Source: an uncultured Pelagibacteraceae bacterium (GTDB lineage: Bacteria > Pseudomonadota > Alphaproteobacteria > Pelagibacterales > Pelagibacteraceae). From it: 41,066 bases of DNA. The notes beneath the pieces were generated by a model that was not told the DNA's origin, searched no databases, and saw only the letters and a list, made by a program, of their open reading frames with translations. Numbering within the stretch: the first letter of the stretch is position 1; each line of letters opens with the position of its first letter. The DNA is taken from positions 1 to 41,066 of the forward strand of contig CACLMD010000007.1 in the NCBI GenBank assembly GCA_902607945.1. The letters run 5' to 3'. This document shows positions 6,856 to 32,939 of the stretch, in pieces. A program made the translations under genes and the position numbers.

Positions 6856-7482
6856 ATGAACGTCACAATTGTTGATTATAATTCGGGCAATATAAGCTCG
6901 GTGATAAACTCCTTTAAGGAAGTTGCTAGAGATAAAGTAAACATTGAGGTAACTTCAGATTTAAATAATATTAAATTCTCAGATAAAGTTGTTTTGCCAG
7001 GGCAGGGCTCGTTCAAAAGTTGTGTTGACGCACTTAATAGTATTAATGGGTTGGTTGATACTTTAAATGAGTTTGTAATTAATAATAAAAAACCCCTACT
7101 TGGAATTTGTGTTGGATTACAAATGTTCGCAGATATTGGTTTTGAAGAAACAGAAACTAAAGGACTTGGTTGGATATCAGGCAAAGTATCAAAAATAGAT
7201 AATCAAAATGGAAAGTTCAAACTTCCTCATATTGGTTGGAATGAAATAAACATTCTAAAGGATGGTAAAATTTTTAAAGATATAGAAAATAACTCACACA
7301 TGTATTTTGTACATAGCTATGAATTTATTCCTGAAGATAAAAGTGTAATTTCAGCAACAACAGACTATTCGTCAAATATTGTTTGTTCAGTTGAAAAAGA
7401 AAATATTTTTGGAACTCAATTTCATCCAGAGAAGAGTGATAAAATTGGATTAAAAATAATTAATAATTTTATAAATTTATAA
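6856..7482 (+). CDS. hisH: Imidazole glycerol phosphate synthase, glutaminase subunit
   Basis: Class I glutamine amidotransferase that releases ammonia from glutamine for HisF. The catalytic triad is visible: nucleophile Cys85 in GICVGLQMF, and His190/Glu192 in FGTQFHPEKS. N-terminal IVDYNSGNISSV is typical of HisH. The length is 208. It follows hisB after 5 bases. Its partner hisF is separated from it by the lyase-like gene and hisA, but all are in one tight run. Confidence 0.96.
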   Translation: MNVTIVDYNSGNISSVINSFKEVARDKVNIEVTSDLNNIKFSDKVVLPGQGSFKSCVDALNSINGLVDTLNEFVINNKKPLLGICVGLQMFADIGFEETETKGLGWISGKVSKIDNQNGKFKLPHIGWNEINILKDGKIFKDIENNSHMYFVHSYEFIPEDKSVISATTDYSSNIVCSVEKENIFGTQFHPEKSDKIGLKIINNFINL

Positions 7483-7483
7483 A

Positions 7484-8323
7484 ATGATAAAAATTTTAAC
7501 TATAGTAATTCTATTTTCTTTTTATTGTAGCGCATCTTTTTCTGATAATCATAAAACAAAATTTAAAGATATCACAGGATTTAAAAAACAATTTATTTCA
7601 ATGCATAAAAAAAAGGAAAATAGAATTAAAGAAGTTAAAAAATCTGACGGTTTTCCAGTTTATGAAGGAGAAACTAGTATTCAATTTACCGTCAATCGGG
7701 AAGACGCAGGCTGTGGTACTGGCAAAGCTCAAACTACACAAATCCAGTGTGATGGAAAAGGTAATAGAAGTAGGCAAGAGTTACATCTAGGTAATATGAA
7801 GTTAAAAAATAAGGAGTATATTTATGAATATGCAGTTTACTTTGATGAAAACTATGAACCTTTAGAGAAAGGTGCAGTTGTTATAATTGTCCAAATGCAT
7901 ACTGATAATAAAGCCAAGGGTTGTCATAGTTGTTGTCATTTTTGGTTTCAAGACTTTAAATATAAAGGAGAGCGTTATTATAGTTGGGCGAGTAAAGCAG
8001 CATATTCATCTGAGCCAGTAGTTATAGGAAAAATTAATGAACTTAAAGGAAAATGGACTCATATTAAATTTCATGTTTTGTGGAAGTTAGATGAAACAGG
8101 AAGATTTAAAATTTACAAAAATAATAAAGTAGTTGTTGATCTTAAAAATATAAAAACTTTGGCTGATACTTGTACTGGAGGTTATATGAAAATAGGAATT
8201 TATAGACATAGAACAATAGGATATTGGAATTCTGATTGGGAAAGTCTACAAGATCAAACTATTTATCTGGATAATATAGTTTTAAGAAAACCTAAAGAAG
8301 AAGAAAAATTTAGAAACAATTAA
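7484..8323 (+). CDS. Secreted polysaccharide lyase-like protein (heparin lyase I type fold) inside the his operon
   Basis: 279 residues with an N-terminal hydrophobic signal-like segment (about 2-20, ending near SASFS), so probably exported to the periplasm. The body resembles the PF14099 polysaccharide lyase family, which includes heparin lyase I: RQELHLG ('R.EL'), a central WTHIKFHVLWKLDETGRFKIYKNN (shown in part: 'W...k.hv.Ws....G...vw.ng') and YMKIGIYRH, a strong family signature. It is cysteine-rich for this genome (a GCHSCCHFW cluster and a C-x-x-x-x-x-C pair near 77-89). No lipobox is seen. Substrate is unknown; family membership is inferred from motifs only. It starts two bases after the hisH stop and ends directly before hisA, so it is co-transcribed with histidine genes although no link in function is obvious. 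Confidence 0.7.
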   Translation: MIKILTIVILFSFYCSASFSDNHKTKFKDITGFKKQFISMHKKKENRIKEVKKSDGFPVYEGETSIQFTVNREDAGCGTGKAQTTQIQCDGKGNRSRQELHLGNMKLKNKEYIYEYAVYFDENYEPLEKGAVVIIVQMHTDNKAKGCHSCCHFWFQDFKYKGERYYSWASKAAYSSEPVVIGKINELKGKWTHIKFHVLWKLDETGRFKIYKNNKVVVDLKNIKTLADTCTGGYMKIGIYRHRTIGYWNSDWESLQDQTIYLDNIVLRKPKEEEKFRNN

Positions 8324-9049
8324 ATGAAAATATTTCCAGCAATAGATATAAAAGATAAAAAGTGTGTAAGGTTGGTCAAAGGAGACTTTGATAATAAAAC
8401 TGAATATGAAATGTCCCCAGTTGAACAGGCTGGCAAATATAAGGAACATGGGTTTAAAAACTTACATATAATTGATTTAGACGGGGCTTTAACTGGAGAA
8501 ACAGTTAATTTGGATATAATTCAGGAGATAATTAAAAAATTTGATTTAAAAATTGAAATTGGTGGCGGTATTAGAAACTTTGAAAGTATTCAGAAATATA
8601 CTGATGCTGGTGTTGAAAAAGTTATTTTAGGAAGTGCTGCTATAAAAGATAAAAATTTTTTAAAAGAAGCGTGTGAAAAATTTCCAGGCAAAATTGCATT
8701 AGGTTTGGATGCTAAAGATGGATATTTATCTGTCTCTGGTTGGAAAGAAAATTCAAATCAATTAACTCTAGATTACTTGAAAGAAGTTATTGATTATGGT
8801 GCAAGTAGATTAATTTATACTGATATTAATCGAGATGGAATGAAGCAAAGTCCTAACTTTGGGGAAACATCAAAGGTTGCTAATATATCTAATTGTCCAG
8901 TAATAATATCAGGTGGAGTTTCTTCAATTGATGATATTAAAAAAGCCAAGGAATTAAATAATAAAAACATCGAAGGCATTATAGTTGGAAAAGCAATATA
9001 TGATGGTGATATTAAATTAGAGGAACTTGTAAAGGAATTAGATGCTTAA
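8324..9049 (+). CDS. hisA: Phosphoribosylformimino-5-aminoimidazole carboxamide ribotide isomerase
   Basis: TIM-barrel isomerase converting ProFAR to PRFAR in histidine synthesis. Length (241) is standard. Catalytic and phosphate-binding motifs: FPAIDI with Asp8, [34 protein letters not shown] and ISGGVSS. The two half-barrel repeats shared with HisF are recognisable. It starts immediately after the lyase-like gene stop and overlaps hisF by 8 bases. Confidence 0.96.
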
Positions 9050-9797
9050 AAATAGAATAATACCTTGCTTAGATGTTAAAAATGGTCGTGTTGTAAAAGG
9101 TATTAATTTTGTAGACTTAAAAGACGCAGGCGATCCGGTTGAACAAGCCAAAATTTATAGTGATGGTGGAGCAGATGAAATTTGTTTTTTAGATATTACT
9201 GCTTCTAACGAAAATAGAGAAACAATCTACGATGTGGTTAAAAAAACCGCAAAGAAATGCTTTGTACCCTTAACAGTTGGTGGTGGCGTTAAAAGCGTAG
9301 ATGATATTAATAAACTACTTAATTGTGGTGCTGACAAAGTTTCAATAAATACAGCGGCAGTAGAAAATTCAAAAGTTGTTTCAGATAGCTCAAAAAAATT
9401 TGGATCTCAATGTATTGTTGTTGCAATAGATGCAAAAAAGAATGGAGATAAATGGGAAGTATTTACTCATGGTGGAAGAAACAATAGTGGTATTAATGCT
9501 TTAGAATATGCGAAACAAATGGAAAAAAATGGTGCAGGAGAATTATTAGTAACTTCAATGGATAGAGATGGAACCCAAGTTGGTTATGATATTGATTTGA
9601 TGTCTAAAATTTCGTCTATAGTTAATATTCCTGTAATTGCATCAGGTGGAGTAGGTAATTTAGATCATTTGGTAGATGGGATTAAATTAGGCAAGGCTAG
9701 TGCTGTTCTAGCTGCATCCATATTTCATTATGGAAAACATTCAGTTAAAGAGGCAAAGGAATATTTGGACTCAAAAGGAATACCTGTTAGAATTTAA
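9042..9797 (+). CDS. hisF: Imidazole glycerol phosphate synthase, cyclase subunit
   Basis: TIM-barrel cyclase that uses HisH-derived ammonia to make imidazole glycerol phosphate and AICAR. Motifs: [15 protein letters not shown] with catalytic Asp11, [27 protein letters not shown] with the second catalytic aspartate, TSMDRDGT, and IASGGVGN. The length of 251 is normal. The AICAR by-product feeds purine synthesis, whose last enzyme PurH is encoded about 8 kb away. It ends one base before hisE. Confidence 0.97.
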
Positions 9798-24008: not shown

Positions 24009-24653
24009 ATGACTAATAACGTTGTTTTTATGGAAAAATATAAATTTACCTGGAGAGACCTGTCTTTGAATGATTTTAAGACATATTTCTTTTCTTTATT
24101 TAAGGCCTTCATTCCAAAGAAAAAAATTAAAAGCTTTGATGAATTAGAAGAATTTATTCAAATGAAATCAGCCTGGGTTTCGCAAGTCACCCTCTATGGT
24201 TATTTGAAAACTAGAATTGGAACAAGATATGTTCTTCATTTTGACAATGAAGAATTTATGAAATCTGTAAATTTAGCTAAATGGAATATTTATGCTGTTT
24301 CTCTTCAGGATCTAACTTTCTTTGCATTCTCTTATTTAAAAGTCCATTTTAACTTAGAGGAAGTGAATAAAGCTAAAGAAATTTTTTTAAAGATTTTAGA
24401 TGATGAAACTTCTAATAACATGCCGCTTGATATAATTGAGGAAGCTAAAAAATCTTTTAATCAAAGGTTAGAAAAAATTAATTGGGAAAGTTATTATAAT
24501 GATATTCCATTTAATCAAAGTGCTTTATCTTTACACAAATGGGCTCCAATAGCTGATGAGTTGAAATCATTAGATAGAAAAATTGTTTTAAATTCTTCAA
24601 TTCTTAAATGGGATGTAATTAAAAAAGAATTTAGGGAAAGAGTCGAATTTTAA
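24009..24653 (+). CDS. Conserved-looking protein of unknown function beside acs and the symporter
   Basis: 214 residues, soluble, no signal peptide and no membrane segment. I do not recognise the family. It has an N-terminal [19 protein letters not shown], a [23 protein letters not shown]-containing region, [13 protein letters not shown], and a predominantly helical, charged C-terminal half. It starts 100 bases from the divergent symporter small subunit and its 3' end overlaps the convergent acs by 4 bases. Its location between acetate uptake and acetate activation suggests a role connected with them, but this is guesswork from context. An internal ATG eight codons in is an alternative start. 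Confidence 0.75.
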
Positions 24654-26743
24654 GTATTTTTTCGATTATCTACTAAACTTTCAACAACACTAGGATCAGC
24701 TAAAGTAGTAGTGTCACCTAATTGATTATGTTCATTCGCTGCAATCTTCCTTAAAATTCTTCTCATAATTTTACCCGATCTTGTTTTTGGCAATCCAGGA
24801 GTAAAATGAATTAAATCAGGTGTTGCAAGAGGGCCTATCTGTTTTCTTACCCACAGTTTTAAATCCCTTTCAAGTTCACCTGTTTCTGTTTCGTTAGAAT
24901 TTAAAGTTACATAACAATATAAACCATTACCTTTTATATCGTGTGGATATCCTACAACAGCAGCCTCAGCTACTTTAGGATGAGCAACAAAAGCACTTTC
25001 AATTTCTGCTGTACCTAGATTATGTCCAGATACAATAATTACATCATCTACTCTTCCTGTGATCCAATAATATCCATCTTTATCTCTTTTACAACCATCG
25101 CCAGTAAAATATTTTCCATCGAATTGAGAAAAATACGTGTCTATAAATCTTTGATGATCACCATAAACTGTTCTCATTTGTCCTGGCCAAGACTGAGATA
25201 TACAAAGTCTTCCTTCACCAGCTCCTTTTATTTCTTTTCCATCTTTATTTAAAAGAGAAGGTTTAATTCCATAAAAAGGCTTTGTAGCAGAACCAGGTTT
25301 TAATGGTATTGCTCCAGTTTGAGGTGCTATCATTATTCCACCTGTTTCTGTTTGCCACCAAGTATCAACTATAGGACACTTAGAATTTCCTACCGTTTTA
25401 TAATACCACATCCATGCCTCAGGGTTTATTGGCTCTCCTACAGTTCCTAATAATTTTAAGGATTTTCTTGATGTTTTATTAACAGGACCATCACCTTCCC
25501 TCATTAATGCCCTAATAGCCGTTGGTGCGGTGTAAAAAGTATTAACTTTATATTTATCAATTATCTGCCACCATCTTGAATTATCAGGATAATTAGGGAT
25601 CCCCTCAAACATTATAGTTGTTGCTCCATTAGCAAGAGGTCCATAAATAATATAGCTATGTCCTGTAACCCAACCTATGTCAGCAGTACACCAATAAACA
25701 TCTTTTGGTTTATAATTAAAAATATATTGATGGGTTATTGATGCATAAACCATGTAACCACCTGTAGTATGTAGTACACCCTTTGGCTTTCCAGTCGATC
25801 CGGAAGTATAAAGGATAAACAGTGGATCTTCCGCATTCATCTCTTCGGGCTCACAATGAGAAGAAGCATCTTTAATCAAATCATGATACCAAACATCTCT
25901 AAAACTATTCCATTCAATTTCGTTTCCTGTTCTTTTGACTACAATACATTTTTTTACATTTGGACAGCTTTGAAGTGCTTCATCAGTTGTTGCTTTTAAA
26001 GGAATTGTTTTTCCTCCTCTAACACCTTCATCTGCTGTAATAATATATTCTGACTCACAATCGTTAACTCTACCTGAAATAGAATCTGCAGAGAATCCTC
26101 CAAAAATAATTGAATGAACAGCACCTATTCTTGCACAAGCTAACATTAAAATTGCTAGTTCAGGTATCATTGTAAGATAAATAGTAACTCGATCTCCTTT
26201 TTGGATTCCTAATTTTTTTAAACCATTTGCTGCTCTAGAAACTTTTTGATGAAGTTGCTTATATGAAATTTTTTGATTATCTTTTGGATCATCCCCAACC
26301 CAAATTATTGCAGTTTTATCTTTTTTATCTTTCAAATGTCTGTCTATACAGTTTGCTGATGCATTTAAAGTTCCATCATAAAACCATTTAATCTTAACAT
26401 CTTTAGAACTATATTTGACTTCTTTAATTTTTTTATAATTTTTTATCCAAGTTATTCTTTTTCCTTCTTTTTTCCAAAATCCATCATTATTTTTAATCGA
26501 CTCATTATATTTTTTTTGATATTGAGATTTATTTACTAAGCCTGCTCTTCCCCACTCGGGTTTGGTTTTAATAATTAGTTCAGAAGGTGTATCTATTTTA
26601 TTAGATTTTATACTGTTTCTTTTTTTTTTAACTTTTCTTCTACGTACTTTTTTTTTAGAAGTTTTTTTTTTAACTTTTCTTCTACTTACTTTTTTTTTAG
26701 AAGTTTTTTTTTTAACTTTTCTTCTTTTCTTTTTTTTTGGCAT
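24650..26743 (-). CDS. acs: Acetyl-CoA synthetase with a lysine/arginine-rich repeat N-terminus
   Basis: AMP-forming acetate:CoA ligase. Adenylation motifs: [15 protein letters not shown] (312-322 for the core), [10 protein letters not shown], and [20 protein letters not shown]; the C-terminal catalytic lysine is in SGKIMRR (Lys658), the site commonly acetylated to switch off Acs. The 697 residues exceed the usual 650 or so because of an extra N-terminal segment of about 50 residues. This is built from tandem copies of a 14-residue basic unit (KKKTSKKK-V-x-RRKV). Core similarity to other Acs starts near [13 protein letters not shown] at 71. No in-frame ATG, GTG or TTG lies between residue 1 and the core, so the extension cannot be dismissed as a wrong start. 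It is the only acs visible here and probably works with the symporter. Confidence 0.95.
26629..26737. repeat. 42-base tandem repeat coding for the basic acs N-terminus
   Basis: TAACTTTTCTTC begins at 26629, 26671 and 26713, exactly 42 bases apart, giving about 2.6 copies. Differences between copies are few (one or two bases). The unit encodes 14 residues in the acs frame. The poly-T/poly-A tracts would make it prone to slippage and copy-number change. Confidence 0.9.
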
Positions 26744-27181: not shown

Positions 27182-27214
27182 ATCTTATAGGATAGATTTT
27201 TAAGTAATTGTTAT

Positions 27215-28027
27215 TTACTTATATCCTTTAAGTAATCGTTTTTTTTTAATAAATAATTTCCAAAAAATTTTTTTGTAATAAGTCAATTTTCTTGAGTCGT
27301 TGGTATTAGGCCTATTTTTAAAAAGAGTTGAGTGATCTTCTTTAGATACCTCTGTCTCTGGTCTACCATTTGTATAATAATATAATGCAATTGATTTTCT
27401 TGAATTCGATTTATCAGGACAATTCACCGGTTCAGGGTTTCCGTGATAACTGAAGTCATCAGTATTAAATATAACAACTCTATTAAATATAGGTACAATT
27501 TTTTTTCTACATTTTTTCATTTCTCTATCCCAAAGTTCTAAAGACCCACCATAGTTTTCTTTCCAATCATGATTAAGATAAATCAACATATTAATTCTAC
27601 GATCTAATTTCATTTTTGGATGTTTATTAAAGTCTGCATGAATATTTAAATATCCTTTGTCTCTAAGCTCATGGGTTCCACCTCCCCAATGATAAGGATC
27701 AGGTATAAGATACTTTTCAATACCAGATATTTTGTTTAAAAAAGTTACAAATGTTTCTGAGTTTGCGGCATTTAAAAATTCAATAATATTTCCAGATAAC
27801 TGTGTATTATCAAGATTTACTAATTTTTGTTCTGCATCATGATCTAATACTTTTCCTATATTGTCTAGATTTTTTGGGAAATCATCAAGTATGTTATTTA
27901 AAAATTTTGGATCAAAAAAATTATCAAAAACAATGTGAGGAAAGGGTTTTGCGTTTATGTATTCACTACTGAATTTTTCAGCTATTAGATCCAAGTTATA
28001 ATAACTTTGATTTAAATATTTTCTCAT
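27215..28027 (-). CDS. 2-oxoglutarate/Fe(II)-dependent oxygenase
   Basis: 270-residue double-stranded beta-helix hydroxylase (PF13640-like). The iron triad is complete: His130-x-Asp132 in NIHADFN and His195 in SYHGNPEP; Arg210 or a neighbour would bind 2-oxoglutarate (SNSRKSIALYYYT). It has GGSLELWD and RVVIFNTDDFSYHG, both common in this family. The substrate is unknown; relatives often act on glycans or proteins. It begins 9 bases after the VTC-domain gene stop and so is probably part of the same minus-strand unit. Confidence 0.88.
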   Translation of the reverse strand: MRKYLNQSYYNLDLIAEKFSSEYINAKPFPHIVFDNFFDPKFLNNILDDFPKNLDNIGKVLDHDAEQKLVNLDNTQLSGNIIEFLNAANSETFVTFLNKISGIEKYLIPDPYHWGGGTHELRDKGYLNIHADFNKHPKMKLDRRINMLIYLNHDWKENYGGSLELWDREMKKCRKKIVPIFNRVVIFNTDDFSYHGNPEPVNCPDKSNSRKSIALYYYTNGRPETEVSKEDHSTLFKNRPNTNDSRKLTYYKKIFWKLFIKKKRLLKGYK

Positions 28028-28036
28028 AAAGCCTTA

Positions 28037-28627
28037 TTAATTAAAAAATTTTTCATATGCATTACAGTATTTTGAAAATCTAGTTCTATTCATGGGAAAC
28101 ATTAGATATAATTCGTTTAAATCTGCTTTATAATTTGTTTTAATTTCGAAAATTTCTTTTTCCTCATTTTTTATCATTTTATTTTTATATCTATAATATT
28201 TGATATTTTCGTCATGAGTTAACCTTGTATTGTTTATTAAATAGTAATGTCTCAGATATTCAACATAAATTAATGGCTTACAAATGCCATAATCATTGTC
28301 ATGGTATCCATATTTAATTAATTTTTTAAACTTTAATTCATCAATTTCTCTTTTTTCCTTGAAACGTCCTTCTACGCTTGAAATTTTTTTTTCTAAAAAA
28401 AATTTTTTAATTTTTGAATTTGGATAGTTTCTCACTCTAATTTTTTTTCTAGGAAGACATCCCTCTACTGAGTCTTTATACATTTCACTATTTGTATTCT
28501 CAAAATATAAACTTTTTATTATTCTTGAGTCATATAATCTTTTTAAAGACATCCTGTGATATAGTTTTTTAAAATCTATTGTTTGATTTTTTTCTACTAA
28601 TATTTTTTCTTCAATTCTAAAAGACAC
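28037..28627 (-). CDS. VTC domain protein (polyphosphate polymerase-like)
   Basis: 196 residues of the VTC/triphosphate tunnel fold. Residues expected to line the tunnel are present: EEK at 6-8, KKIRVRNY (Lys61 to Tyr68), FFLEKKI with Glu79-Lys81, EGRFKEKR (Arg88-Arg93), TRLTHD (Arg135, Asp139), EIKTNY (Glu161, Lys163) and RFSKY (Arg183, Lys186). In yeast the VTC complex makes polyphosphate from ATP; bacterial VTC-domain proteins are often linked to CotH-like and DUF4956 genes. No membrane segment is seen. Its start lies two bases after the CotH-like gene stop. Activity is inferred from family. Confidence 0.85.
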   Translation of the reverse strand: MSFRIEEKILVEKNQTIDFKKLYHRMSLKRLYDSRIIKSLYFENTNSEMYKDSVEGCLPRKKIRVRNYPNSKIKKFFLEKKISSVEGRFKEKREIDELKFKKLIKYGYHDNDYGICKPLIYVEYLRHYYLINNTRLTHDENIKYYRYKNKMIKNEEKEIFEIKTNYKADLNELYLMFPMNRTRFSKYCNAYEKFFN

Positions 28628-28629
28628 GG

Positions 28630-30942
28630 TTAATAAGTATTAAAAGTTATTTTTGATTGATTGTCTATATAAGTTTTTTTTTTAAAATTTGAGCAGGTGT
28701 GTTCATTAATTTTTATTTGTCCTCCACTAAATTCTTGTTTTTTATTATACGCACTAAAACATATATCAACATCCTTTATCTGAATCTTATTAATACTAGA
28801 TGCTGATCCATCCTTTGAAGCGACTCCAATCTTAGAATTTATAATATTCATATTATCTAATTTAAGAATCGTTTTTTCACCAACTGATAGTCCTTTGTCT
28901 CCACAAGAGTTCACATCTATATTTTTAAAAGTATAAGTACCTCCTGAAACATCGACACAATCATTCTTAGAATTTTTTATAATAGTATTTTTGATAATTA
29001 GATTTGAAAAATCAATATCAAGTCCGTCAGAAAAAGAATTTATTATTTCAATTTTATCAATGTCACCATTAGAACCAACTAAATTTAAAGAATCTTCACA
29101 ATTAGAGTCTTGTACTTTTAAACGTGTATTTTTAAAATTGGATTTATAAAATACTAAGCATCCCGTTAATCCTCTTGAGTCAATAGGAAAAAATTTTAAA
29201 TCACTTTCAAATTTGCTACCAGTAAAGATAATATTCATATTTTTTAAATTGCTATCAATAAAATATGCTCTGGACTCTGGTATTATCTGTGTAATTAAAA
29301 ATGTATTTTTCGTTTTATCGAAGTTAAATTTAATTCCATCATCATAATAAAAGTTAATATTTTCATCTTTAGAGTTGAAATAATTATACTTTTTCGCGTT
29401 ATCTGTATCATATGGATATGCACCTATAAATATATGTTCTTTAGAATCTTTATAAAAGTTTCCTTCCACTAGTTTAGCTTGCTCATCATTATTTAGACTA
29501 ATCTCATCACAACTGTAATAATCTTTACAAATTAAAAAATTATTTTCATTTTTTTCATTAAATTTTTTGAAGACAAAAATAGCATCTTTATTTCTATCTG
29601 ATTTATTTTTCATTGCTTTTTCTAAAGTTTCTTTTTCAAATTTTTTTTCTTCTTCAAACATACCTTCCTTTTTCATTGAAGAATCATAGTCATCTTTAAT
29701 TTTTGATAAGTTATATTTTAATATACCAATTTTTTTTTCAATATTTTTCTCAGAAAAGTCGTAATTTTTATCAAAAAAGTTTCTTTTAAATTTTTGTAAA
29801 TTCAAATTATTCAAAGATTTTTCTAATTTATCTATTGAACTTTTGTAATGAATATTAATTGGTAAATTAATTCGAGTACTTTTATTTTTAAAAATATTAG
29901 GATTTCCATCATAATAGATAGGTTCAAAATAATTTTCTGAATTATTCCAATAAAATGTTCTATTATGCGCATTTAACGCGTGTTCTGCATTGGATATTTT
30001 AAGAATTAAATTATAAATATTTAGATTAGTTACATATTTTTTTTTTAAACTACCTAAATTAAAATTACTTATTCTATCGGTAAAAATTTTATTACCCTGA
30101 TTGTCTTCTAGGAAACTTATTGAGTTTGAATAAATTAGATTTAATCTAGATAATGCATTATAAGAAATTTTTGAATGAATCGGACCTTTCTTAAACCAAT
30201 TACTGTTAGTTTGTCTTACAAACATTCCAATGGAGGCATCTTTTGAGCTTTCAACAAGGCCTATTTCGTAAATATCTAAATCGTTATTTTTAAAGCTCTC
30301 AAGAGATTTAAATAAATCTTTTTCATTTGCTTCAAAAATTCCACTCTCTGTTTTTTTATTATATTCAAGTAATTCTTTTCTAATCTTTTCTTGAAACAAC
30401 ATTTTTTGGTCTAATCCATTAATGTTTACATTTACAAATTTTGTTCTAGGAGAAATATATTTAAGCGTTCTTAAAATCTCAGTTAAGAATATTTCATCCT
30501 CAGAAACTCCTCTTGTACCATCTAAAAGCAACTTAAAATTTGTGATATTTGCAATGTTACCATTTAATAGTTTAACATCTAGTGACTGTCTTACTGTATT
30601 TTCTTGATAATTAATGTGATCTCTAAAATCTCCATTTTGTCTTATTTTGGCTTTTAGTTTACATGAGGAATTATCTGAGTAATTAACTATTATTTCACCA
30701 GAAAATCTTTTTTTTAATTTTTTAGGAATAATTTTCGTATTACTGATTAATATTTTTATATTATTTTCAATCCAGTTTTTATTCTTATTTATTTTAATAT
30801 TAATTACTTTTATTTTATGTTCCTCGTCAACTTTGCAAGAAATGTTATTTTCTGAAAATGATTTATTGGATAAAAGTATAGATAAAATTAAAATATAAAA
30901 TGCTAGAGATAATCTTAATTTTTTACAGTATTTGAGTTTCAA
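28630..30942 (-). CDS. Secreted CotH-like protein with a C-terminal beta-helix
   Basis: 770 residues with an N-terminal signal peptide or anchor (about 10-30, ending KSFSEN). Residues about 75-350 resemble CotH-like kinases: ETLRT-type spacing in DEIFLTEILRTLKYISPRT, FVNVNINGLDQKMLFQEKI (family 'fv.l.iNg.y.G.Y.l.E.id') and a late YFEPIYYDGNP with Asp345, where CotH has a 'W-D-D' like motif. A charged linker (about 400-455) follows. Residues about 505-760 look like a right-handed beta-helix: regular short repeats with DGLDIDFSN, DCVDVSGG, DKGLSVGE. Position between VTC and DUF4956 genes supports the CotH-like call. Catalytic residues are uncertain, so it could be a non-kinase surface protein. 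It overlaps the DUF4956 gene by 20 bases. Confidence 0.72.
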   Translation of the reverse strand: MKLKYCKKLRLSLAFYILILSILLSNKSFSENNISCKVDEEHKIKVINIKINKNKNWIENNIKILISNTKIIPKKLKKRFSGEIIVNYSDNSSCKLKAKIRQNGDFRDHINYQENTVRQSLDVKLLNGNIANITNFKLLLDGTRGVSEDEIFLTEILRTLKYISPRTKFVNVNINGLDQKMLFQEKIRKELLEYNKKTESGIFEANEKDLFKSLESFKNNDLDIYEIGLVESSKDASIGMFVRQTNSNWFKKGPIHSKISYNALSRLNLIYSNSISFLEDNQGNKIFTDRISNFNLGSLKKKYVTNLNIYNLILKISNAEHALNAHNRTFYWNNSENYFEPIYYDGNPNIFKNKSTRINLPINIHYKSSIDKLEKSLNNLNLQKFKRNFFDKNYDFSEKNIEKKIGILKYNLSKIKDDYDSSMKKEGMFEEEKKFEKETLEKAMKNKSDRNKDAIFVFKKFNEKNENNFLICKDYYSCDEISLNNDEQAKLVEGNFYKDSKEHIFIGAYPYDTDNAKKYNYFNSKDENINFYYDDGIKFNFDKTKNTFLITQIIPESRAYFIDSNLKNMNIIFTGSKFESDLKFFPIDSRGLTGCLVFYKSNFKNTRLKVQDSNCEDSLNLVGSNGDIDKIEIINSFSDGLDIDFSNLIIKNTIIKNSKNDCVDVSGGTYTFKNIDVNSCGDKGLSVGEKTILKLDNMNIINSKIGVASKDGSASSINKIQIKDVDICFSAYNKKQEFSGGQIKINEHTCSNFKKKTYIDNQSKITFNTY

Positions 30943-31594
30943 TTTTTTTTATATGTTCTATGTTTTTAATTTCTTCTTTAAATTTAAATAAATCTTTTTT
31001 ATTTTCAAAAATAAAATGATATATAAATTCGTTATTTTCTAAATCATTAGTTGAATTCTTTAGGTTTATATTGTTTTCAAAAAAATCAATATATTTACTC
31101 GTATTAACTTCCAAATTATGATGTTGTGCACCTTCATTAAAAGATATGTTGTAAAAATTTTTATTTTTCTTATTAAAAAGAATATTTATTATTTTAACAA
31201 TAAATAAAATTAAGATAGTGCAAAGCAACAGTTGAATCGCCCATTTAGTTCTCACCGATGTAGCAATTCCAAGTGTTATTAAATCAAAATATATAATTAA
31301 CTCTAATGCGCTTTTTACTGGGTGTCTAAATCTTACTATAGATAAAGCACCTATCATACCAAGAGACAAGGCTATATTTCCTGAAATTGTCTTAGTTATA
31401 ACAAAGGTTATTATCGGTAGAAGCATAAAAGATATTGTTTGAGCATATGATTTTGCCCAAGCTTGGTTTGCAAATATCAAAGTTTGCCTGATAAGAAGAC
31501 CACTTATCACTAATAAAAGATAAGGTTCAATTTCGTTGAAATTTTGAATGTTCATTTTGAGTTTAAAATTATCACTTAATTTCTTAAACCACAA
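30923..31594 (-). CDS. DUF4956 membrane protein
   Basis: 223 residues with about four membrane segments in the first 145 residues (about 23-43, 50-70, 72-90, 100-140) and a soluble C-terminal domain (145-223). GMIGALSIVRFRHPVK at 79-94 is the diagnostic DUF4956 motif. Members are usually next to VTC-domain and CotH-like genes, as here, but function is not established. It leads the run DUF4956-CotH-VTC-oxygenase(-EVE). An internal ATG at codon 14 (31555) is an alternative start; the annotated one adds a basic N-terminus. Confidence 0.9.
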   Translation of the reverse strand: MWFKKLSDNFKLKMNIQNFNEIEPYLLLVISGLLIRQTLIFANQAWAKSYAQTISFMLLPIITFVITKTISGNIALSLGMIGALSIVRFRHPVKSALELIIYFDLITLGIATSVRTKWAIQLLLCTILILFIVKIINILFNKKNKNFYNISFNEGAQHHNLEVNTSKYIDFFENNINLKNSTNDLENNEFIYHFIFENKKDLFKFKEEIKNIEHIKKIETQIL

Positions 31595-31764
31595 ATGATA
31601 AAATAAATAAAGTTTTAAAGTGCTAGATCATAAAAATTCACCACATGGAATGATTTATAATTAAATAAAAGGAATTAAAAAAAAATTATAAGATTATATT
31701 AAAATGATTGATAATTAATTTATATTAAGAGTGTATTGTTATTTTTTTAATATAAAACGATAGA

Positions 31765-32865
31765 ATGAAAAAATATTTTTATAGACTATTTCCAAAAAAA
31801 TTTGATAAAATTTGGAATAAAATAAGAAATACTGAAAATATCGATTCTACTCTTAGACACATAACCGATACATTCATTTCCTCAGAGTCCTATAAAAAAG
31901 TATCTAATTATTGGCACATTAGAAATATTAAAAGTTTTGAGGCCTTAGCAGAATTTGGAATTAATAAATACGGTTCAACAATAGCACCTTACTATTTCAC
32001 ATTTACTTCACTATATCACGATGAATGGTTTAATAATGTTCCAAGTCTTAAGGGAAAGCCTTTTACAATCGATAGTAAGGAACTTTTTAAAAAGCAAAAA
32101 AATTTTTCTTTAAGAGAAAGTATAAGTTATAATTATCTTTGTTATTTACTTTTTTATAGCCTTAAAGAAACCCCTTATTATAAATATTTAGAAAAATTAA
32201 ATGATAAAACTTATCTTGGATTTGATGACCCCTATATATCAATTGATAATATCAATATATCAACAGACAAGCTAGCATCACTATTTGATTGTGAAAAAAT
32301 TTTAGATACATTTGAAGGAGTAAAGATTAATAAAATTTTAGAAATTGGAGCAGGTTCTGGTAGAACTAGTGAAGCTCTTCTTTCAATAAAAAAGGACACA
32401 AAATACATCATATGCGATATTCCTCCAGCAATTTACATTTCTTATAAAAGGTTAAAGATTGCTTTTCCTAATAAAAAAATTTCGTTATTAATCGATGTAA
32501 ATAATAAGACGCAATTAAAAAAAAATATCGAAGAGTCCGATATATCTTTTATATTTCCAGATCATCTAAAACTTTTAGACAAAAATTTTGTTGAATTAAC
32601 AATGGCTATTGATTGCTTGCACGAAATGGATAAACCAACAATTAAATATTATTTTGAACAGGCTGACAGTTTTTCAAAAAATTTTTATTTTAGTGTTTGG
32701 GAAAAAACAGAAGTTCCTTATAGTAAAAATATCTTTAAAAAAGAGAATATTCTCTCATATTACTCTGGTGATTATGATATTCCTAAATCGTGGAAAAATG
32801 TATTAACTAAAAATCTTGTTTTTCCTTCAAACCAAATTGCCCTTGGTTATAAAATTAATAATTAA
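31765..32865 (+). CDS. Putative sugar O-methyltransferase
   Basis: 366-residue SAM-dependent methyltransferase. The SAM loop ILEIGAGSGRTSEA has Glu193 and Gly195-Gly199. IICDIPPAIYISYKRL and MAIDCLHEMD are typical of the family of putative sugar O-methyltransferases (TIGR04371 type), whose members lie in glycan clusters. The N-terminal 150 residues are the family-specific helical region. Acceptor unknown. It is divergent from DUF4956 over 170 bases and convergent with tsaD over 74 bases. Confidence 0.82.
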   Translation: MKKYFYRLFPKKFDKIWNKIRNTENIDSTLRHITDTFISSESYKKVSNYWHIRNIKSFEALAEFGINKYGSTIAPYYFTFTSLYHDEWFNNVPSLKGKPFTIDSKELFKKQKNFSLRESISYNYLCYLLFYSLKETPYYKYLEKLNDKTYLGFDDPYISIDNINISTDKLASLFDCEKILDTFEGVKINKILEIGAGSGRTSEALLSIKKDTKYIICDIPPAIYISYKRLKIAFPNKKISLLIDVNNKTQLKKNIEESDISFIFPDHLKLLDKNFVELTMAIDCLHEMDKPTIKYYFEQADSFSKNFYFSVWEKTEVPYSKNIFKKENILSYYSGDYDIPKSWKNVLTKNLVFPSNQIALGYKINN

Positions 32866-32881
32866 CATACTTTAAGAAATT

Positions 32882-32920
32882 AGCTATCTTATTATATATA
32901 ATCTAAGCTGAGTATTTTAT
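32882..32920 (+). terminator. Weak A+T-rich hairpin after the sugar methyltransferase
   Basis: A perfect palindrome ATTATATATAAT (32891-32902) with outer AGCT arms at 32882-32885 and 32906-32909, followed by a T-rich tract. It lies in the convergent spacer before tsaD. Low stability, so the terminator reading is tentative. Confidence 0.25.
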
Positions 32921-32939
32921 TTTTATAATCAGTATTTCA

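Follow-up and report, generated by a model that had tools for sequence, protein, structure and literature searches.

A DUF4956–CotH–VTC gene cassette of SAR11 bacteria with histidine at the CotH catalytic aspartate position, a beta-helix and a pyrophosphatase link in relatives

The subject of this study is a set of three adjacent minus-strand genes of an uncultured Pelagibacteraceae bacterium (contig CACLMD010000007.1, assembly GCA_902607945.1). The analysed stretch, positions 1 to 41,066 of the forward strand (41,066 nucleotides), is called the window below and belongs to a genome, G000, of 832 kb that is 68% complete. The genes encode a DUF4956 membrane protein (D), a protein that joins a CotH kinase fold to a right-handed beta-helix (C) and a VTC-domain protein (V) (Table 1). 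The reading frames of D and C share 20 nt and the gap between C and V is 2 nt, confirming the arrangement of overlapping or abutting genes given by an earlier reading made from the letters alone (the sequence-only reading). This spacing, together with the gene order conserved among relatives, would be consistent with co-transcription of D-C-V. A scan for promoters and terminators stayed at the level of shuffled sequence (48 versus 48.1 and 1 versus 1.0). The beta-helix half of C, the histidine that replaces the catalytic aspartate of CotH, the accessory location of the cassette and its link to a pyrophosphatase in relatives had all gone unnoticed in the sequence-only reading.

When searched alone, C gave no CotH match in Pfam and nothing useful in NCBIfam. 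A profile of 35 homologues (alignment A1: sequences shorter than 700 aa were dropped, 38 of 41 were kept and 35 of those 38 were taken) matched CotH of Bacillus cereus (5jd9) with an E-value of 1.2e-18, and PF08757 was matched by 8 of the 35 family members. A model of C was computed with AlphaFold2 from alignment A4, which holds 17 sequences (the window and 16 loci), and reached a predicted local distance difference test score (pLDDT) of 84.4. Residues 43–423 of the model align to 5jd9 with a Z-score of 19.1 and a root mean square deviation of 3.9 over 295 residues (VIA-align), and the model aligns to 5jda with a Z-score of ∼19 over 298 residues. The CotH-like fold that had been proposed for C was therefore recovered by both the profile and the model; the kinase label that went with it was not sustained, as the catalytic Asp position is occupied by His321.

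Two Asp residues of the 5jd9 chain lie 23 residues apart, and because this spacing fits both numbers they were taken as D228 and D251 of B. subtilis CotH, for which the D228Q and D251A variants are given as inactive in the cited part of PMC7821199. The first of the two pairs with His321 of C and the second with D345 (GAT codon). Among 56 C proteins with a beta-helix, 51 have His in the column of His321, 2 have Glu, one each has Ala, Thr or Gln, and none has Asp. In 52 C homologues without a beta-helix the same column holds Asp in 47, His in 3, and Gly and Glu in one each; the tally includes two loci added later, before which His stood at 49 of 54 beta-helix rows, and leaves out two beta-helix fragments without the kinase part. 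The second Asp is kept in 49 of 54 beta-helix rows. The beta-helix branch has His at the very position, D228, whose substitution abolishes the activity of B. subtilis CotH, and C should not for now be labelled a CotH kinase. Of the 56 rows, 21 do have an Asp at another place in that loop, including a subgroup with the motif HHD, so that a shift of register is possible for these; the other 35 rows, the window among them, have none. Compared with the spore-coat kinase of Bacillus (5jd9/5jda), C retains the kinase fold and the positions of Glu185 and Asp345, but differs by His321 at the Asp228 position, by the added beta-helix and by its host, which is non-sporing and of another phylum.

We considered whether His is found only with a beta-helix, and this statement proved too strong. 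Three His rows lack a beta-helix match: L087 is cut by the end of its contig, L071 has a beta-helix fragment adjacent on the opposite strand, and L128 (7556–9205, plus strand) encodes a complete C of 549 aa that has no recognisable beta-helix and lies in a D-C-V cassette. L128 shows that the association is not absolute. The 51 His rows, being related, are not independent observations. In a phylogeny of the kinase domain, made as a quick tree, one starred group gathers 46 rows, 5jd9 included; it holds no beta-helix row, and all but one of its members have Asp.

Residues 515–770 of C form a right-handed beta-helix whose closest structural matches are AlgE/AlgG epimerases, polygalacturonases and phage tailspikes (Z-scores of 17–20 over ∼200–240 residues). 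This half is the better conserved: among the core columns of C, 16 of 145 in the beta-helix are conserved at 90% or more versus 8 of 381 in the kinase part. D617, D639, D642, D644, D661, D664, D682, K683, E689 and K710 are invariant. D617, D639, D661 and D682 are spaced by 21–22 residues, which matches a ladder on successive rungs of the helix. GH28 enzymes use a catalytic set of three Asp and one His. In a weak match of C to the endopolygalacturonase 1k5c (E 0.039), D639 and D661 pair with Asp residues of that enzyme, whereas Asn660 stands at an acidic position and Lys683 at that of the His; as far as so weak an alignment tells, the GH28 set is incomplete in C. C thus shares the fold of AlgE/AlgG and GH28 enzymes and two aligned Asp, and differs from them by Asn660, Lys683 and its extra ladder of invariant Asp. 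The conservation of the beta-helix, the Asp ladder and the match to folds of polysaccharide enzymes indicate that this half of C most likely handles a polysaccharide.

A second feature of the family was found in relatives. Two overlapping samples were searched, of 297 genomes at the level of the order and 399 at the level of the genus. A family-I inorganic pyrophosphatase is present in 5 of the 297 (PF00719; the same five were found with our own profile) and in 6 of the 399, four positives being common to both samples, hence 7 distinct genomes. In all seven the gene lies inside the D-C-V cassette: (i) directly before D (L045, L050), (ii) between C and V (L049, L176), (iii) after V (L056) or (iv) fused behind the beta-helix of C (L068, cut by the contig end, and L177, which encodes 981 aa with a signal and has D and V adjacent). 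The chance that five pyrophosphatase genomes should fall among the 37 genomes with V is 2e-5, adjacency not yet counted. The DxDxxD motif is kept in 7/7 cassette pyrophosphatases. As judged by eye, the five separate enzymes and L177 have starts resembling signal peptides and C of the window has a Sec-like signal at its N-terminus, which supports export of both C and the cassette pyrophosphatase. A control search was positive in 9 of 14 well-known genomes; the window genome and its cassette gave no family-I match.

The three genes are inherited together. In the order sample, V and C are each present in 37 genomes and D in 46; V and C occur together in 35, leaving 2 with V only and 2 with C only (Fisher 1e-40), V and D together in 34, and C and D together in 35. 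Co-occurrence in Pelagibacterales, which the sequence-only reading had proposed to survey, is thus borne out. The gene order is D-C-V in 34 of 43 sources, which are the window plus 42 fetched stretches, and the remaining nine comprise six cut by contig ends, two rearranged and one remnant. The apparent remnant, L054 (G200:C2), has a D with several stops, a shortened V and no C. The pairwise distance matrices of V, D and C are correlated over 36 loci (r of 0.83, 0.84 and 0.91), and 0 of 2000 permutations gave values as high. A scan for the D motif in named genomes gave at least 80 loci, to which one from viral_contigs was added (81 in all). By our own calls of open reading frames (ORFs), the trio is complete in 42 of these; D is joined by C alone in 14 and by V alone in 10, and stands by itself in 5. 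Another 3 have C with V, 3 have just C, and in 4 no member of the trio was called. The complete trios span Bacillota, Bacteroidota, Campylobacterota, Calditrichota, Elusimicrobiota, Cyanobacteriota and one Micrarchaeota record, and outside SAR11 other gene orders are also seen, in agreement with the earlier statement that the trio recurs in other bacteria.

In SAR11 the cassette is accessory and mobile. The flanks of its site, an EVE-domain gene and tsaD, are kept in 11 relatives (L159–L169), where their matches lie from 6 bases to 7.1 kb apart, and tblastn and six-frame profile searches found none of D, C and V in this interval in any of the 11. Two of these relatives, G026 and G142, hold a cassette at another site. 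The EVE-tsaD interval is thus a variable insertion slot in Pelagibacter. The argument that presence in a streamlined genome implies selection is accordingly weak, with V in 37 of 297 genomes and the slot empty of the cassette in 11 relatives. Two single-cell genomes of Prochlorococcus, L084 and L085, contain SAR11-like D-C-V cassettes; the quick tree places their C within the SAR11 sequences, which suggests that either the genes passed between the two lineages or the assemblies are mixed. In L085 the flanks include MiaE, tetrapyrrole methylase and Dus genes. A viral origin was also considered and not retained, a scan of viral_contigs for the DUF4956 motif having found one relative only, L158 (IMGVR_UViG_3300010163_000107, filed as viral), in which V stands beside D and C is absent.

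The VTC identity proposed for V is confirmed by a PF09359 match of 70 bits (cut-off 23) over residues 4–195, and its family profile matches the tunnel domain of yeast VTC4 with an E-value of 4.7e-15. In 39 V proteins (alignment A2: sequences shorter than 190 aa dropped, 39 of 43 kept), R4, E6, K8, K62, R64, R66, E79, K81, K90, R126, E161, K163 and K186 are invariant and R135 is conserved at 90% or more, at a mean column identity of 30%. The sequence-only reading had listed most of these tunnel residues; only its Lys61 lies outside the invariant set, and the basic tunnel residues on which its proposal depended are present by alignment with VTC4. VTC4 makes polyphosphate (polyP) from ATP. Some of these residues are catalytic in VTC4. 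The full conservation of the tunnel residues at 30% mean column identity argues for catalysis, and by this likeness V would polymerise polyP from ATP. In eukaryotes the catalytic VTC subunit carries an SPX domain and a fused transmembrane domain. V shares with yeast VTC4 the triphosphate tunnel domain and its aligned basic residues, but it has one Pfam domain in 196 aa, with neither SPX nor a membrane domain of its own, and its maximum hydropathy of 0.42 reveals no membrane-spanning segment. The separate DUF4956 protein may stand in for the membrane domain of VTC4.

D matches PF16316 with 41.9 bits (cut-off 30.6), as expected from the DUF4956 assignment. Its model (pLDDT 85.3) combines helices able to span a membrane with a C-terminal ferredoxin-like domain, and this C-terminal part matches ACT/PII-like domains in both Foldseek and VIA. 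For the membrane part, no MgtC fold was among the matches listed by these two programs, in which only the ferredoxin-like domain was matched. G82, A83, L84, S85, R88, R90, F103 and G109 are invariant in 36 sequences (alignment A3: those shorter than 190 aa dropped, 36 of 38 kept) and equally in 57 (alignment A5: the window and 56 of the 69 listed D).

The trio itself is known: CotH, polyphosphate polymerase and DUF4956 genes are described together in the cited parts of reports on Gram-positive Pel clusters (PMC7112168; SIR_1592-1594 of S. intermedius, PMC12345266). Deletion of the D homologue of S. intermedius increased Pel and that of the C homologue decreased it, and each cut aggregation by more than half in one medium (PMC12345266, same part). 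In both settings the three families stand side by side, by or near genes for cell-surface polysaccharide. The cited parts mention neither a beta-helix in the CotH protein, SIR_1594 being said to carry FN3, nor an exported pyrophosphatase, and the gene order there is unlike that of SAR11. The synteny of the trio was not found outside Pel loci, according to the relevant part of PMC12345266; our loci, in the variable slot of SAR11 and in many phyla, suggest that it may occur beyond them. In the window, contiguous pelDEADAFG genes were absent from the four neighbours scanned with Pfam, no genome-wide search for Pel models having been made. A further assembly of VTC, 'tubulin' and CotH genes is described for NELoc-2 of C. 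perfringens in the section seen of PMC2879425, and our guess is that these 'tubulin' genes are DUF4956. Searches of one open-access library turned up no account of either the His variant or the pyrophosphatase link, and both appear to be new.

How might the three proteins act together? We tentatively propose, as possible rather than probable, that D-C-V serves, as an accessory module of the envelope, to bring phosphoanhydride energy through the inner membrane. In this scheme, cytosolic V would make polyP, perhaps short, from ATP. The small membrane protein D, with its sensor-like domain, would anchor V and pass on or regulate the product of V. Exported C, working outside without access to ATP, would draw on polyP to modify a polysaccharide of the envelope that its beta-helix binds along its length. 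The leftover pyrophosphate (PPi) would be hydrolysed, in some cassettes by the dedicated exported pyrophosphatase, the presence of which would be explained if short polyP ends as PPi. In its favour stand the tunnel residues kept in V, the joint inheritance of the trio, the pyrophosphatases within the cassettes of relatives, the glycan-related families and the Calditrichaeota phosphoesterase among the neighbours, the effects of deleting the D or C homologue in S. intermedius, and the failure to find PPK1 or PPK2 in the window genome at its 68% completeness. From the sequence-only reading, a membrane-associated module tied to polyP or to phosphotransfer at the envelope survives, aided by the exported-looking pyrophosphatases of the seven relatives. 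A bolder form of the proposal, in which the beta-helix branch is an extracellular phosphotransferase that uses polyP or triphosphate from V and D through phospho-His321 or another non-Asp mechanism while a tethered pyrophosphatase destroys PPi, appears decidedly improbable to us.

Several observations weigh against the proposal. His321 may mean that C performs no phosphotransfer whatever; 5 of the 56 beta-helix proteins lack even the His, three of these have also lost the second Asp, and the L068 fusion has Ala at this position. The pyrophosphatase is missing from 32 of the 37 genomes with V, the window among them. D occurs without V in 12 of the 297 genomes, although its matches in G096, G240, G244 and G278 (E 6e-4 to 1e-3) are probably spurious and several others lie at contig ends. 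Transport by D is conjectural. PPK1 is present in 5 of 17 cassette genomes versus 5 of 14 cassette-free ones (chosen by hand), so that V is no simple substitute for PPK1 and this candidate role was discarded. Finally, no change in Pel or aggregation is reported for deletion of the V homologue of S. intermedius in the cited part of PMC12345266, which speaks against V being indispensable, at any rate in that species.

Other readings share part of this evidence. In one, which we regard as unlikely, V and D make polyP and bring it to the periplasm or cell surface, where it serves as a reserve of phosphate or as a coat; C would then bind or scaffold without catalysis, and the pyrophosphatase would turn the end product into free phosphate. 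A kinase site that is degenerate in part of the branch beside an invariant beta-helix ladder would suit this reading, as would the linkage of the pyrophosphatase in relatives; however, family-I pyrophosphatases act poorly on long polyP. The genes around the cassettes are glycan-related, and of the two roles offered by the sequence-only reading, surface glycan modification fits this neighbourhood better than phosphate storage. SAR11 and Prochlorococcus, the latter holding the cassettes of L084 and L085, do buffer much phosphate in the periplasm by an unexplained mechanism (cited parts of PMC7250820 and PMC4525184), but the buffer is described for SAR11 cells generally, V is in just 37 of 297 genomes, and bacteria make no periplasmic polyP according to the authors of PMC7250820 in that part.

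If D were instead a regulator of the MgtC kind acting on phosphate or ATP metabolism, V a sensor of nucleotides or polyP, and C a protein kinase or pseudokinase of the envelope that adjusts the synthesis of polysaccharide, polyP would not be made at all. The ACT-like domain of D fits this idea, as do the MgtC transmembrane domain described for the S. intermedius homologue (PMC12345266, cited part) and the opposite effects on Pel of the D and C deletions with none reported for V; it is nevertheless unlikely in view of the V tunnel, whose conservation argues for catalysis, and it leaves the exported pyrophosphatase unexplained. SelO transfers AMP, and C could likewise move AMP or another nucleoside monophosphate to a target, releasing PPi for the linked pyrophosphatase. 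Replacement of the catalytic Asp with retention of the second, metal-binding Asp in 49 of 54 rows would agree with this, and so would the pyrophosphatase fused straight to C in two genomes. Yet C, as judged by eye, bears a signal for export and ATP is not expected outside, and the constant company of V is left unexplained; of the readings set out here we give this one the least credence.

Returning to the proposed envelope module, the pairing of a putative polyP polymerase with a CotH-fold protein that is probably exported, and sometimes with an exported-looking pyrophosphatase, offers a testable hypothesis on the phosphate donor. The source of ATP for the spore-coat CotH is listed as an unanswered question in the cited part of PMC7821199, and a polyP-driven phosphotransferase, if this reading is true, would be a general answer for kinases that work without ATP. 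Genetically, the cassette also defines a subset of SAR11, joined by some records of Prochlorococcus, where polyP could exist in the periplasm or on the surface, though it is not common enough to account for the general phosphate buffer of SAR11. For annotation, a beta-helix protein named 'CotH kinase' may have lost the catalytic Asp without the name showing it.

Table 1. Features of the D-C-V cassette and its slot in the window.
Feature	Position	Strand	Basis
D, DUF4956 membrane protein, 223 aa	30923-31594	minus	ORF translation; TTG start as called
C, CotH-fold and beta-helix protein, 770 aa	28630-30942	minus	ORF translation, family profile, AlphaFold2 model
CotH kinase-fold domain of C, aa 43-423	29674-30816	minus	VIA-align to 5jd9
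His321 codon CAC, aligned with catalytic Asp of CotH (B. subtilis D228)	29980-29982	minus	
Right-handed beta-helix domain of C, aa 515-770	28633-29400	minus	model and conservation
V, VTC-domain (triphosphate tunnel) protein, 196 aa, GTG start	28037-28627	minus	PF09359
2-oxoglutarate (2OG)-Fe(II) oxygenase, starts 9 nt past V	27215-28027	minus	PF13640, 68.8 bits
Putative sugar O-methyltransferase (NanM type), divergent slot neighbour	31765-32865	plus	TIGR04371, 86.6 bits (cut-off 44)
Variable slot, EVE-domain gene to tsaD, containing the cassette	27182-32939		11 relatives with kept flanks

Among the neighbours of the cassette in the window, the 2OG-Fe(II) oxygenase is matched by no homologous ORF in any of the 42 fetched cassette neighbourhoods and is possibly a passenger of the slot, outside the conserved membership of the cassette. 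A reading as anti-phage defence was rejected, PADLOC having given just a generic 2OG model on this gene. Elsewhere, a scan of 123 of the 200 non-window ORFs (at least 150 aa, within 2.5 kb) returned epimerases, glycosyltransferases and GDP-mannose dehydratases as the commonest families (raw counts, with no background computed). L114, from Calditrichaeota, encodes a secreted-looking calcineurin-like metallophosphoesterase between D and C (7632–8771, plus strand). In L036 a membrane sulfatase-superfamily protein (7133–9607, minus strand) follows V by 3 nt, and in L036–L039 an unnamed gene of 282–349 aa lies directly upstream of C, between D and C if D is present. Further along the window, the acetyl-CoA synthetase-like protein encoded at 24650–26743 has ∼40 N-terminal residues made of Lys/Arg-rich repeats, and its matches in the 11 relatives span 639–665 of its 697 residues.

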